Below, piece after piece: positions 18,764 to 23,684 of a stretch of DNA of 38,077 nt (its first letter is position 1; each line of letters starts with the position of its first letter). Below the pieces are notes generated by a model. It was given only the letters and a program-made list of their open reading frames with translations, was not told the origin of the DNA and made no database searches. The DNA is from Komagataeibacter sp. FXV3. Lineage in GTDB: Bacteria > Pseudomonadota > Alphaproteobacteria > Acetobacterales > Acetobacteraceae. Location of the stretch: the NCBI RefSeq assembly GCF_015155755.1, contig NZ_VWPI01000159.1, forward strand, positions 1 through 38,077. Reading direction: 5' to 3'. Position numbers and translations under genes: made by a program.

Positions 18764-18987
18764 GAATTGGAAAACGGTGTCCGTGGCAGGCACGATGGTC
18801 GTGGCTGTCGTGCCATGTGGCATGACATCGGGCAGGGATTACAGGCGGTTGCGCGGGCTGGATGGCGCGTGGGCAGGTCAGGTGGAATTGTAATGCAGCA
18901 GAACGGGACGGATTTGATCATGGCGGATGCAGCACGGAAGCGGGGCGGATGCGCCGACTTCCATGGCCTTGGCATGGGAGCAGCCTG

Positions 18988-19701
18988 ATGAGTGACGTTC
19001 TGCATGATGAGGCTGCCGAGAAAGTCGTGGAAATACCTTCCCCCAAATCCGCGCTGGACGCGGCTGCGGTCAAGGCGGCGTACCGTCGCTGGGCCAGCGT
19101 GTATGACGCCGTATTCGGCAGTATTTCGGCCTTCGGACGCAGGCGCGCGGTTGAAGCCGTCAACGGTCTGCCGGGTTCGCAGGTGCTGGAAGTAGGCGTG
19201 GGCACGGGGCTGGCGCTGCCGTACTACCGCAAGGACAAGCATATTACCGGCATCGACCTGTCCGGGGACATGCTGGAACGCGCGCGCCTGCGCGTAAGGC
19301 GGCAGCACCTGTCCAATGTGGACGACCTGCTGGAAATGGATGCCGAGGCAACGAAGTTCGCCGATGGCACGTTCGATATCGCGGTGGCGATGTTCGTGGC
19401 CTCCGTCGTGCCGCATCCGCGTGCGCTGCTGGCGGAACTCAAGCGCGTGGTCAAGCCGGGCGGGCACATCCTGTTCGTCAACCATTTCCTGGCGCAGGGT
19501 GGCGTACGGCTGGCGGTTGAACGCGGCATGGCGCGGGCATCGCATTCACTGGGCTGGCATCCCGATTTCGCCATTGAATCGCTGCTGCCGCCTGCTGACC
19601 TGCGGCGCGCGACACTGCAGCCGGTGCCGCCTGCGGGGCTGTTCACCTTGGTTACGCTGCTGCGTGAAGCCGACAGCTGCGCCAGCCCCATGGTGGCGTA
19701 A
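18988..19701 (+). CDS. pmtA: Phosphatidylethanolamine N-methyltransferase (PmtA-like)
   Basis: This 237-residue class I SAM-dependent methyltransferase resembles Rhodobacter-type PmtA, which methylates phosphatidylethanolamine stepwise to phosphatidylcholine. SAM-binding motif I is VLEVGVGTGLALPYY (66-80) and the following acidic position is ITGIDLSGDML. FDIAVAMFVASVVPHP and the motif III-like LKRVVKPGGHILFVNHFL are also family features. The ATG at 18988 has GGGAG seven bases upstream. The longer frame reaching back to 18862 has no comparable site or conservation. Between gshB and this gene are 224 bases in which I see no credible gene. Phosphatidylcholine is a known membrane lipid of acetic acid bacteria, which fits, but other small-molecule methyltransferases share these motifs. 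Confidence 0.85.
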   Translation: MSDVLHDEAAEKVVEIPSPKSALDAAAVKAAYRRWASVYDAVFGSISAFGRRRAVEAVNGLPGSQVLEVGVGTGLALPYYRKDKHITGIDLSGDMLERARLRVRRQHLSNVDDLLEMDAEATKFADGTFDIAVAMFVASVVPHPRALLAELKRVVKPGGHILFVNHFLAQGGVRLAVERGMARASHSLGWHPDFAIESLLPPADLRRATLQPVPPAGLFTLVTLLREADSCASPMVA

Positions 19702-19789: not shown

Positions 19790-19873
19790 GTGTATAAGGC
19801 GCGGTATATGATGAAATCATGGTAACGATTGGCCATGCCAGACACCGGCGCATGGCAGCAGGGAGTACATCGT

Positions 19874-21238
19874 ATGCCCACAGGCACACAGTTCGGGGCC
19901 GATGCGGTGCGGGAGGCTGGCGGATCCTGTGGTTACAGGACGGTTGGCATGCTGTACCTCGTCATGGCGATTGTGGCTGGCATGGTCGGTGGCCTGCTGG
20001 CTGTTGGCCTTCAGGCCGGATTGCTGCCCCAGACGCTGACCGACGCATGGGCCGAGGGCGATATCGCTGGCGCCGCGGGGCGCATCGGGCGCCGCCATGG
20101 CATGATGATGGTGTTTTTCTGTGCGCTGCCCGCCCTGTTTGGCGGCTTTGGCAACTGGTTCGTGCCGCTGCTGCTGCGCGCCCGCGCGCTGGCTTTCCCG
20201 CGCATGGCGCTGGTGGGGTGGGGACTGGTCGCTGCCAGCTTCGTGACCGTTTTGGCGGGGCTTTCCCCTGCCGTGCCCGCGCAGGTCTCGCTGCTGGCGC
20301 TGATGGTATGGTGCCTTGGCATGCTGCTGCAGGCCATCAACATGGTGGCCACCGTCCTGAACATGGGACCGATGGACCAGCGCCTGCGTGACATGCCCAT
20401 ATTCGTATGGGCGCAGGGGCTGACGGCCATGATGGCTGTCATGGTCATGCCAGTGCTGGCCGGTGGGCTGACGCGCATCGTACTGTCCGGTGGGGACATG
20501 TCCGGGCAGATCGACGGCCTGCTGCATGTTTTCGCCGGGCCTGAAATCGCGCTGCTGCTGCTGCCGTCCATCGGGATCGTTTCCCAGATTATTGAAACAT
20601 TTTCCTGTTCGCCGCTGCAGATGCCGCGCGTGGTGCTGGGTGCGCTGGTCGTGATGTCGGTCGGTGGTGGCTCGGTGTGGGTGCATGACCTGCTGCATGG
20701 TGGGCTGGCGCATATGGCGGCGCCTGCGGCCAGTGTCCAGCTTGGGCTGATTGTCCTGCCGGTGCTGGCGGTTCTGGTGGCGTGGGCGCGCACGGTCCGG
20801 GCGGGGCATGTCCGTGCCTCGGTTCCCATGGAATGGGCCGCAGGGTTCGTGGCGCTGCTGCTGGTGGGATCTGGCATGTCGCTGCTGCCGGGCGGCATGG
20901 CGGATGTGCATGCGGCGACGCTGTATGCTGCCGTGTTCGCGCTGTTCGCCGGTTTCTATTACTGGATTGGCAAGATGACGGGCCATATGGCCCCGGTGGG
21001 TGCCAGCCGCGTTCATTTCGGCCTGACGGTAGGGGGAACGGTCCTGTCACTGATGGCGTTCCATGGCCTGCCTGGCGTTATGGGTGCGGTGCTGATGGGC
21101 CTGTCGGTCGTGGTGTTTGCCGGGATCGTGGTAAGTGTCGGCATGGAGTCCGGCACATCGCTGCCCGCCAATTACTGGGGACCGGGTGCACGCACCCCTG
21201 AATGGCAGATGCCATCCCCCACGCGTGGAGATGCATGA
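19874..21238 (+). CDS. Degenerate heme-copper oxidase subunit I (COX1/CtaD-like)
   Basis: This 454-residue polytopic membrane protein is clearly derived from cytochrome c oxidase subunit I. RRHGMMMVFF, GGFGNWFVPLL, GIVSQIIETFS, FALFAGFYYWIGKMTG and the tail NYWGPGARTPEW all align to CtaD. The low-spin heme ligands appear kept: His75 in helix II and His346. The active site is not. GHPEVY reads AGPEIA (221-226), so one CuB histidine is Gly222 and the cross-linking tyrosine is Ala226. The HH pair is His271-Asp272, and the high-spin heme histidine is Asp344. D-channel residues (GAPDM, PRxNN) and the K-channel segment are missing too. Canonical subunit I is about 530 residues. The ATG at 19874 follows GGGAG by eight bases. 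No subunit II or III is nearby. It is unlikely to reduce oxygen; an intact frame suggests a retained or recently idle role. Confidence 0.85.
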   Translation: MPTGTQFGADAVREAGGSCGYRTVGMLYLVMAIVAGMVGGLLAVGLQAGLLPQTLTDAWAEGDIAGAAGRIGRRHGMMMVFFCALPALFGGFGNWFVPLLLRARALAFPRMALVGWGLVAASFVTVLAGLSPAVPAQVSLLALMVWCLGMLLQAINMVATVLNMGPMDQRLRDMPIFVWAQGLTAMMAVMVMPVLAGGLTRIVLSGGDMSGQIDGLLHVFAGPEIALLLLPSIGIVSQIIETFSCSPLQMPRVVLGALVVMSVGGGSVWVHDLLHGGLAHMAAPAASVQLGLIVLPVLAVLVAWARTVRAGHVRASVPMEWAAGFVALLLVGSGMSLLPGGMADVHAATLYAAVFALFAGFYYWIGKMTGHMAPVGASRVHFGLTVGGTVLSLMAFHGLPGVMGAVLMGLSVVVFAGIVVSVGMESGTSLPANYWGPGARTPEWQMPSPTRGDA

Positions 21239-22200
21239 GCATGAGTGGCGCCATCACAACGCCCGACGCGGTTGATACCGCCCCCATTACTTACGACGCC
21301 GCCCGCGTAGGCACTGAAGCGCGGGACTGGCTGGTGCTGCTCAAGCCGCGTGTCATCTCGCTGGTGGTGTTTACCGGGGCGGCCGGCCTGTATATGGCGC
21401 CCGGGCCGCTTAACCCGCTGGTGGCGGCTGTCAGCATCCTGTGCGTATGCATGGCGTCAGGTGCCGCGGGTGCAATCAACATGTGGTATGACCGTGATAT
21501 CGATGCGGTGATGAAGCGCACGGTAACCCGCCCCATTCCCAATGGGCGCGTAAGCCCTGATGCGGCGCTGGGTTATGGTATTGGCCTGTCGGTGGCGTCC
21601 GTTATCCTGATGTGGCTGGCGACGAATGCCCTGGCCGCGGGTATCCTGGCGTTTTCCATTTTCTTCTATGCCGTCATCTACACCATGTGGCTGAAGCGTT
21701 CGACGCCGCAGAACATCGTGATCGGTGGGGCGGCGGGTGCGTTCCCGCCCATGATCGGGTGGGCTGCCGCCACCGGGTCGATGGCAGTCATGCCGGTGGT
21801 GATGTTCGGCATCATCTTCCTGTGGACACCACCGCATTTCTGGTCGCTGTCGCTTTATGCATGCAAGGATTATGGGCGGGCCGGTATTCCCATGCTGCCG
21901 GTGGTGCGCGGGGCGCGGCACACACGGTGGCAGATCCTGTGGTACACGATCATCCTGACTGCCGTGTCGCTGGTGCCGTCTTTCATGCATCTGGCAGGCT
22001 GGCTGTACACGGTTGTCGCCAGCGTGCTGGGGGCCGGGTTCATTTACTGTGCCATCGGGGTGCTGCGTGACAGGCAGGATGCGAATGGTGTCAGCCTGAC
22101 GGGGGACGGTCCCGCACGCCGCTCGTTCCGTTATTCGCTGGCTTACCTGTTTTTCCTGTTCCTTGGCCTGCTGGCCGACCATGCCTTTATCGCCCACTGA
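21235..22200 (+). CDS. ctaB: Protoheme IX farnesyltransferase (heme O synthase)
   Basis: This integral-membrane prenyltransferase (321 residues from 21235, or 319 from the ATG at 21241) adds a farnesyl group to heme b to make heme O. Heme O is needed by bo3-type quinol oxidase and is the precursor of heme A. It shows LLKPRVISLVVFTGAAGLY, the aspartate-rich prenyl-diphosphate motif NMWYDRDIDAVMKRT with TRPIPNGRVSP, then NIVIGGAAGAFPPMIGWAAA and LWTPPHFWSLSLYACKDYG, all standard CtaB/CyoE signatures. The first ATG overlaps the stop of the COX1-like gene (ATGA), so translation is coupled. GGAG lies four bases from the first ATG and ten from the second, which leaves the start undecided. With the neighbouring oxidase subunit decayed, its product is probably used by a quinol oxidase encoded elsewhere (inference). 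Confidence 0.95.
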   Translation: MSMSGAITTPDAVDTAPITYDAARVGTEARDWLVLLKPRVISLVVFTGAAGLYMAPGPLNPLVAAVSILCVCMASGAAGAINMWYDRDIDAVMKRTVTRPIPNGRVSPDAALGYGIGLSVASVILMWLATNALAAGILAFSIFFYAVIYTMWLKRSTPQNIVIGGAAGAFPPMIGWAAATGSMAVMPVVMFGIIFLWTPPHFWSLSLYACKDYGRAGIPMLPVVRGARHTRWQILWYTIILTAVSLVPSFMHLAGWLYTVVASVLGAGFIYCAIGVLRDRQDANGVSLTGDGPARRSFRYSLAYLFFLFLGLLADHAFIAH

Positions 22201-22709: not shown

Positions 22710-23684
22710 TCAGCGGCGCGGGGTCTGCTGGATGGCGGACAGCAACCATGTGCCCGTCCCGGCCGAGCGGACGAATGTCCACAGTTCGGTTACGGTGGTG
22801 CGGTTGGAGGGATCGCCGTCAATGACGCGGCCCGTCATGTCGGTAGTGATGTCGATCATGGAATACTGCATGGCGACGGTGGCGTAATCAAAGCCGTTTT
22901 CACGCCAGCTTTCCACCAGATCACCGCGTTCAAACCGGATGTCCGACACCACATTGCGTGCGCCACGGCTGGTCAGATCGTTCAGCTGGCTGCTGAAGTA
23001 AGACACCATTTCCGGTGTGGCCATGTGCTGCATGGCCCCGACATTCTGCTGGCTCCATGCGGTCTGAATATTGATCAGCGCCTGCTGGAAGGCCTGATAA
23101 TCGGCTGCCGTAATGGCGACACCTACCGGCTGCTGGCCACCACCCTGTGGCACCGGCCCCGCATCCGGACGCTGCATGCCAAAGGGCACGGCATTGCCAC
23201 CATTGGCGCGGTTGCCAGCAAAACGGCGGATGGCCCAGCGGACAATAAAGAAGACCAGTGCCAGCTGGATCAGCAGTCCAAGGAAGCCGCTGCCGCCCAT
23301 ACCGGAACCGAACATGCCATGCCCGAACATCATGCCAAACAGGCCCGCACCGATCAGGCCACCCATGAAGCCATTCATGAACGGATGGCGGGGGCGTGCC
23401 ATGGCCATGGCACCCGCGCCAAACGGTGCCCGCGCACCATAGCCGGGCGTGGGCTGCGGGCGGGGTGTCATGGTGCGCTGGAACGGGGTCGCGCCGAACG
23501 GTGCGGTCTGTGATGGCGCGGGCGCGCTGTAGGTCCGTGACCCACGGCTGCCCATGGAGAAGCCACCACCCGCACGGGCATCAGCCACATCGGGATGGGC
23601 CAGCAGCGGCAGCATGGTCAGGGCCGCGCTGGCAGCAAGGACGATGCTTTTACGCGGCATCTGGCGCGAAGAATTCTGTTTCAT
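22710..23684 (-). CDS. Exported/membrane protein with Tim44-like domain
   Basis: This 324-residue protein has an N-terminal signal sequence (KSIVLAASAALTMLPLLA, possible cleavage after the ADARA near residue 38). A low-complexity Pro/Gly/Ala region follows, then a Gly/Met-rich segment (FMGGLIGAGLFGMMFGHGMF) and a transmembrane helix at about 133-152 (FLGLLIQLALVFFIVRWA). The C-terminal Tim44-like domain (about 185-322) contains DYQAFQQALINIQTAWSQQN, ATPEMVSYF and RTTVTELWTFVRS. Tim44 domains are named after the mitochondrial import motor subunit; bacterial members are membrane-associated and mostly of unknown job. The gene is monocistronic, with its own candidate promoter at 23723-23753 and a strong terminator. 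Function beyond envelope location is not supported. Confidence 0.85.
   Translation of the reverse strand: MKQNSSRQMPRKSIVLAASAALTMLPLLAHPDVADARAGGGFSMGSRGSRTYSAPAPSQTAPFGATPFQRTMTPRPQPTPGYGARAPFGAGAMAMARPRHPFMNGFMGGLIGAGLFGMMFGHGMFGSGMGGSGFLGLLIQLALVFFIVRWAIRRFAGNRANGGNAVPFGMQRPDAGPVPQGGGQQPVGVAITAADYQAFQQALINIQTAWSQQNVGAMQHMATPEMVSYFSSQLNDLTSRGARNVVSDIRFERGDLVESWRENGFDYATVAMQYSMIDITTDMTGRVIDGDPSNRTTVTELWTFVRSAGTGTWLLSAIQQTPRR

Follow-up and report, generated by a model that had tools for sequence, protein, structure and literature searches.

The gene at positions 19874..21238 on the plus strand of the window (the whole stretch of Komagataeibacter sp. FXV3 DNA that was analysed, 38,077 nucleotides in length) encodes a homologue of cytochrome c oxidase subunit I (COX1) of 454 amino acids (P0001), which lacks the binuclear centre and is referred to as pseudo-CtaD in the following. 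With a probability of roughly 0.5, pseudo-CtaD is proposed to represent a vertically inherited former oxidase subunit CtaD that now acts in the membrane as a bis-His heme-binding partner of CtaB, the heme O synthase, accepting, holding or passing on heme O or heme B. Its placement in an operon with the heme O synthase gene, together with two putatively heme-gripping histidines, suggests that the protein holds or hands over heme and does not consume oxygen. In the preliminary description of the gene, a heme-binding pseudo-oxidase acting as b-type electron carrier, heme chaperone or assembly partner had been considered. The tie to ctaB favours the chaperone and assembly-partner options and disfavours a free electron carrier.

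The ctaD-like gene and its relation to COX1

As described previously from the sequence, the reading frame 19874..21238 is open over 454 residues and is preceded by a ribosome binding site, namely the Shine-Dalgarno-like sequence AGGGAG at 19860..19865 (plus strand), 8 nt upstream of the ATG at 19874. Downstream, the ctaB gene for heme O synthase was identified on the same strand (21235..22200; TIGR01473, 327.7 bits versus a cut-off of 210.3). A first possible start, the ATG at 21235, overlaps the stop codon (TGA) of pseudo-ctaD as ATGA, and a second one, an in-frame ATG, follows at 21241. Two neighbours lie outside this unit: a methyltransferase gene (18862..19701, plus strand; best NCBIfam match PmtA with 156.9 bits, below the cut-off of 390) and a gene for a Tim44-like domain protein (22710..23684, minus strand; domain match) converging on ctaB. 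As read from the frames, the Tim44-like gene occupies the same position in genomes G001 and G100 and is a long-standing neighbour of the COX locus. Prediction on the DNA yielded one terminator-like site and no promoter-like sites. The Komagataeibacter genome harbours only one other COX1-family protein, a full-length one (488 bits) encoded on a separate contig beside a COX3-family gene, which is taken to be CyoB.

Kinship to COX1, claimed in the preliminary description, was evident from the Pfam COX1 family (PF00115; E=8.8e-41, 140.6 bits, cut-off 34.8) and from a phmmer search of PDB, in which Rhodobacter and Paracoccus CtaD were the best relatives (E 9.5e-41). The score obtained with the CtaD equivalog model TIGR02891 (156.6 bits) lies below its curated cut-off of 670.75. 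All seven ligand assignments made previously were reproduced by the alignments (Paracoccus CtaD numbering). The axial ligands of the low-spin heme are kept, H94 being H75 (codon 20096..20098) and H413 being H346 (20909..20911). Within Gly222-Ala226 (20537..20551), the CuB ligand H276 and Y280 are replaced by G222 and A226, respectively. The CuB ligands H325 and H326 correspond to H271 and D272 (20684..20689), and the heme a3 ligand H411 corresponds to D344 (20903..20905); all these codons are on the plus strand. Loss of D- and K-channel residues likewise proved correct (D124 is A105, K354 is V300), and E278 is kept in Komagataeibacter pseudo-CtaD as E224.

Compared to the aa3-type CtaD proteins of Paracoccus (1ar1) and Rhodobacter (2gsm), pseudo-CtaD is homologous over most of the chain, shares both low-spin histidines and shows the ctaD-ctaB gene order also found in G100. 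In contrast to these proteins, it has lost the heme a3 ligand, most CuB ligands, Tyr280, K354 and the arginine loop binding the heme propionates, and it is shorter by about 100 residues; neither CtaG nor SURF1 was detected in any of 22 acetous genomes.

Structure prediction with AlphaFold, supplied with 26 real COX1 rows, gave a COX1-like bundle of 12 long helices (pTM 0.88) that was closest to 1ar1_A (TM 0.82 by query length), this model being biased by the COX1 rows. In the model, H75 is placed in helix 64-100 and H346 in helix 342-369. From four pseudo-CtaD rows alone, only a poor model was obtained (pTM 0.39). The confident model thus depends on real COX1 rows and is not independent evidence; the predicted COX1 fold of pseudo-CtaD is supported by homology.

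Conservation and selection across acetous Acetobacteraceae

A protein search of 397 Acetobacteraceae genomes identified close orthologues in Komagataeibacter (genus g1), genus g73 and Gluconacetobacter (g43), and weaker matches elsewhere. In most of 30 genomes examined, a COX1-like frame of about 400-480 amino acids was located upstream of ctaB, many of these frames being too diverged for the first search to separate them from CyoB. Distant members were first picked by position and low charge, not by their histidines, and later additions by profile match. The resulting alignment comprises 103 genes from 103 genomes (that of Komagataeibacter itself included) representing 18 acetous genera. About eight collected loci were not used, comprising repeat genomes, a real COX1 (L143), a locus with missing upstream end (L155) and one without the gene (L160). 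For rows exceeding 480 residues (8 of 103) the last 480 were aligned, and for real COX1 the last 600. Genome G327, whose frame is cut ahead of H75, was excluded from all counts over 102 rows.

Although pairwise identity among pseudo-CtaD proteins is as low as 15% (median 27%), three residues are fully invariant over all 103 orthologues: W179 (20408..20410), W269 (20678..20680; two residues before the H325 position; both on the plus strand) and H346. H75 is missing in G327 alone (102 of 103), so that both low-spin histidines are present in 102/102 rows with an intact N-terminus and in all 18 genera. For comparison, 76 real COX1 sequences, mostly alphaproteobacterial by title, were used. This set had been pre-selected for the GHPEVY and HH motifs, by which 3 of 79 sequences were removed; its full conservation at H276, Y280, H325 and H326 is therefore given by construction, which does not apply to H94, H411, H413 and the tryptophans. 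In real COX1, 197 columns show an invariance of at least 97%; the 102 pseudo-CtaD rows fully keep only four of them, namely H75, W179, W269 and H346. The 197 columns include 13 histidine columns, none of which is fully kept besides the low-spin pair; the next one is that at 381 (0.873). The chance figure for this retention (3e-4) treats columns as exchangeable and is illustrative only.

The residues of the oxygen-reducing site follow a different pattern: in the 102 rows, H276 and Y280 are never kept, H411 is kept in 2, H326 in 10 and H325 in 46. Small or hydrophobic residues occupy the H276 site in 87 rows, the Y280 site in 92, the H326 site in 42 and the H411 site in 62, and never replace the low-spin pair (the Fisher value of 2.8e-7 ignores relatedness). 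K354 is kept in none of the 102 rows and is small or hydrophobic in all of them. The pattern previously proposed from the Komagataeibacter gene, in which the binuclear centre was lost selectively and the bis-His site retained, holds over the 103 aligned genes of 18 acetous genera. The H325 position is polar or charged in 100 of 102 rows, which is not predicted by a purely 'dead' site. Moreover, the pair His271-Asp272 occurs in all 31 rows of Komagataeibacter, g73 and Gluconacetobacter, and the H325 position perhaps represents a second functional site.

In all 102 rows, the MPRRY loop is gapped, and R54 is kept in 11 of them. In COX, the two arginines of this loop bind the heme propionates, and R54 contacts the formyl group of heme a. 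A heme pocket, if any, is accordingly taken to be remodelled, and among the sequence data these losses speak most clearly against a heme a site of the classical kind. The C-terminal COX1 motif NYWG-GA-T-EW (approximately 21170-21222) was seen in the inspected rows of Komagataeibacter, g73, Gluconacetobacter and g41; roughly half of the 102 rows lack it or show a changed version.

Selection acting on the gene was analysed with the Nei-Gojobori method for within-genus pairs with dS of 0.05-2 (e.g., 32 of 66 pairs in g31 and 24 of 55 in g33; no usable pairs in g61, one each in g47 and g101). Of the eleven genera that provided usable pairs, ten showed a median dN/dS of pseudo-ctaD in the range 0.11-0.32. 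The exception is g57 with a median of 0.63 and single pairs up to 0.72; single pairs in g31 reached 0.57. For ctaB of the same genomes, values of 0.03-0.23 were determined, the pseudo-ctaD medians being about 1.7 to 3.4 times the ctaB medians. Furthermore, both CAT and CAC are used within genera, in seven for the H75 codon and in eight for the H346 codon, which indicates conservation at the level of the amino acid rather than of the DNA.

The frames are open in 102 of 103 genes, and no broken frame was seen other than that of G327 (85%-complete genome), which is cut at the N-terminus. This cut (locus L219) may be an assembly error or a true lesion. Stops flagged in profile matches of G279, G339, G085 (two), G037, G030 and G214 are taken to lie where the match overruns the frame end, as the collected frames are open. 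A recent pseudogene or an assembly artefact was rejected in view of the open frames and the dN/dS values. Frameshifted or neutrally evolving orthologues, named in the preliminary description as evidence that would speak against its reading, thus amount to one cut frame in 103, and dN/dS is well below 1, which favours the earlier reading. The statement that the gene is not subject to random decay is supported, since purifying selection is clear; judged by these sequence patterns, pseudo-CtaD is not a product of decay.

Linkage to ctaB and loss of the remaining COX machinery

In all 103 genes, the nearest in-frame ctaB start, perhaps not the true start, lies -4 to +13 nt from pseudo-ctaD, and a 4-nt overlap was found in 61 of them. 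Based on this spacing, the two genes are presumably coupled translationally.

Joint occurrence was evaluated in 78 genomes of 19 genera, chosen from the 397 genomes as lacking real COX by match scores. Komagataeibacter, g73 and Gluconacetobacter (31 genomes, all carrying the gene) are outside this set, and genera that were not picked may hold more. In the set, 72 genomes possess ctaB and pseudo-CtaD (profile E <=1e-59), one possesses ctaB alone and five lack both; 22 of the 26 rows of the profile used (A2) come from these 78 genomes, and the matches of these 22 are therefore given by construction. None of the five genomes lacking both genes (G029, G116, G210, G066 and G070) showed a CyoB-level match. 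These are small acetous genomes of 1.7-2.1 Mb. The sole COX1-family match in G029 and G066 is a frame of 785 and 833 amino acids, respectively, perhaps a quinol NO reductase as judged by length; in G070 no such match was found.

Linkage to ctaB and joint absence with it were thus observed with one exception among the 73 ctaB genomes, G001 (L160/L222), which encodes two CyoB elsewhere in the genome. In G001, a methyltransferase gene lies directly upstream of ctaB, resembling the neighbour at 18862..19701 in the window. CtaB and Cyo can therefore do without pseudo-CtaD. In a tree based on ctaB alone (from 44 loci, two of which yielded no ctaB), G001 is placed just outside the 31 rows with pseudo-CtaD, so that within this clade no case of ctaB being retained after loss of pseudo-CtaD was observed. 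The genes occupy the old ctaD-ctaB place, since G100, which has a real ctaD-ctaB, has a Tim44-like neighbour of the same kind. In a tree of subsets of 34 pseudo-CtaD and 24 real COX1 proteins, the two groups were split by one branch (100/100). Several independent origins are disfavoured by this single branch; very long branches inside the pseudo-CtaD group make deep joins unsafe.

Further components of the COX machinery were searched in 22 acetous genomes. Neither CtaG nor SURF1 was detected in any of these (0/22 each), and CtaG, SURF1 and COX3 are all present in G100 with its real COX. Weak COX3-family matches occurred in 18 of the 22 genomes (best 6.7e-17 versus 8e-88 in G100). In 15 of these 18 genomes, those with CyoB located (not G060, G142 and G215), the matches adjoin CyoB and are therefore regarded as CyoC-like. 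The combination of COX3, CtaG and SURF1 expected for an aa3 complex was consequently found in none of the 22 genomes. CtaA was present in eight and absent in nine of 17 pseudo-CtaD genomes tested, and heme A is hence not expected as a ligand in the latter. This patchy distribution might separate users of ba3 from users of bo3 oxidases. Persistence of ctaB together with pseudo-ctaD after loss of CtaG and SURF1 was observed, and the gene pair is independent of heme A. A heme A-specific role, or a function as electron donor to CtaA, was rejected given the nine genomes without CtaA. A working oxidase with an alternative CuB site was likewise rejected in view of H325 in only 46 of 102 rows and CtaG in 0 of 22 genomes, despite the constant His271-Asp272 pair in 31 of 31 rows.

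Proposed function of pseudo-CtaD and competing explanations

Contrary to the preliminary description, in which no described function was known for such a protein, the gene has already been published. In PMC10715153, which cites Matsutani 2014, a 'deranged' COX1-like protein of Acetobacter without any metal cofactor-binding residues is described, and it is suggested that this protein may stabilise CtaB. In PMC5158111, A. pasteurianus ctaD and ctaB are listed as APT_01775 and APT_01774; PMC6915089 refers to ctaB and ctaA as functional remnants of a COX cluster. In PMC4596401, by contrast, which also cites Matsutani, A. pasteurianus is counted among the organisms having cytochrome c oxidase. The main text of a Gluconobacter oxydans knockout study (PMC8602642) contains none of the words cytochrome, heme and oxidase. 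The deranged Acetobacter protein very probably belongs to the same family and locus (ctaD beside ctaB) as pseudo-CtaD. In PMC10715153 it is described for Acetobacter spp.; the present collection covers 18 genera with an invariant low-spin pair. Linkage to ctaB and loss of the oxygen site agree with the published account; invariance of the putative low-spin ligands contradicts the published loss of all ligands. Among the open-access literature matches listed, no statement on retention of this pair was found. The abstract of Matsutani 2014 is said to report that ctaD function was lost by accumulated mutations.

Retention of the site filled first, loss of the oxygen residues and the tie to the heme O synthase lead to the reading of pseudo-CtaD as a heme-holding partner. 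According to this proposal, CtaB turns heme B into farnesylated, membrane-bound heme O. The site kept in pseudo-CtaD would be the one that is filled first in COX, i.e., that of the low-spin heme between TM2 and TM10 (H75/H346), and may receive or hold heme beside CtaB. Heme would then be passed chiefly to CyoB of the bo3/ba3 quinol oxidase, the replacement of COX, or alternatively to CtaA where CtaA exists. We infer each of these elements, that is, that heme is bound, that it would be heme O or B, that CtaB is contacted and that a transfer step follows. CyoB belongs to the same superfamily, occurs in the same genomes and is the expected user of heme supplied by CtaB. It differs from pseudo-CtaD in its complete COX1-family match (about 460-510 bits), its location elsewhere in the genome and its frames of mostly 660-710 amino acids. 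To our knowledge, E. coli runs Cyo without a partner like pseudo-CtaD, which counts against the proposed role.

Known COX biogenesis offers parallels for this proposal. According to PMC9145763, the low-spin heme is the first to be formed, and heme O is presumably handed over by complexes of CtaA and CtaB. PMC5249081 describes that Paracoccus subunit I transits complexes containing CtaG and Surf1c, a heme chaperone. SURF1, the heme chaperone in assembly of COX and ba3 oxidases, resembles the role proposed for pseudo-CtaD in that heme is held near the synthase and passed to subunit I; it represents a different protein family and is absent from the 22 acetous genomes. More tentatively, and with clearly less confidence than the role as such, a single conversion in the ancestor of the acetous Acetobacteraceae may have turned the oxidase subunit into a heme O acceptor or chaperone unit together with CtaB, replacing the SURF1 and CtaA steps for the quinol oxidase.

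The published suggestion of a structural stabiliser without cofactor, in which the COX1 scaffold is kept since CtaB folds or inserts poorly alone, appears rather unlikely here. It would account for the operon position and the joint absence with ctaB, and it is put forward in PMC10715153. It leaves unexplained, however, why the axial histidines belong to the best-conserved residues of a protein that otherwise diverges to 15% pairwise identity, and G001 keeps ctaB without pseudo-CtaD. A regulator of heme O synthesis, in which heme occupancy of the bis-His site would alter CtaB activity as a product or substrate sensor, makes use of the same data as the heme-holding partner, from which it cannot be separated by sequence. 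PMC9145763 states that heme-binding Surf1, absent here, is a suggested modulator of heme A synthase; even so, such a regulator is considered quite improbable.

Bis-His low-spin heme sites are typical of electron carriers, and acetic acid bacteria are rich in quinone-linked oxidation chains. Both points would suit a b-type cytochrome whose single low-spin heme links quinol or dehydrogenases to a further respiratory component by electron transfer. Nevertheless, with only one conserved His pair, at most one heme is expected by this pattern, and the neighbour in 103 of 103 loci is ctaB and not an oxidase or dehydrogenase gene, so that this function is judged unlikely. A non-functional remnant kept open only through coupled translation of ctaB, which corresponds to the reading attributed above to Matsutani 2014, is highly improbable and already disfavoured. 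The 4-nt overlaps in 61 of 103 genes, the fast divergence with very long branches, and the dN/dS medians, which exceed the ctaB values by a factor of about 1.7 to 3.4 and reach 0.63 in g57, would fit such a remnant. Coupling, however, requires translation and not particular residues; ten of eleven genera show dN/dS values far below 1, residues are invariant over 18 genera, and synonymous differences of the His codons occur within seven and eight genera.

If the tentative reading of a single ancestral conversion into a heme O acceptor or chaperone is true, pseudo-CtaD would represent a heme-trafficking protein that descends from the heme-copper superfamily without being an oxidase. A protein having the low-spin site only and being tied to heme O synthase would isolate the exit of heme O from CtaB to subunit I. 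Such a protein also changes how a gene described in the literature as having lost all cofactor ligands is to be interpreted, and it would explain why vinegar bacteria retain pseudo-CtaD over deep divergence.
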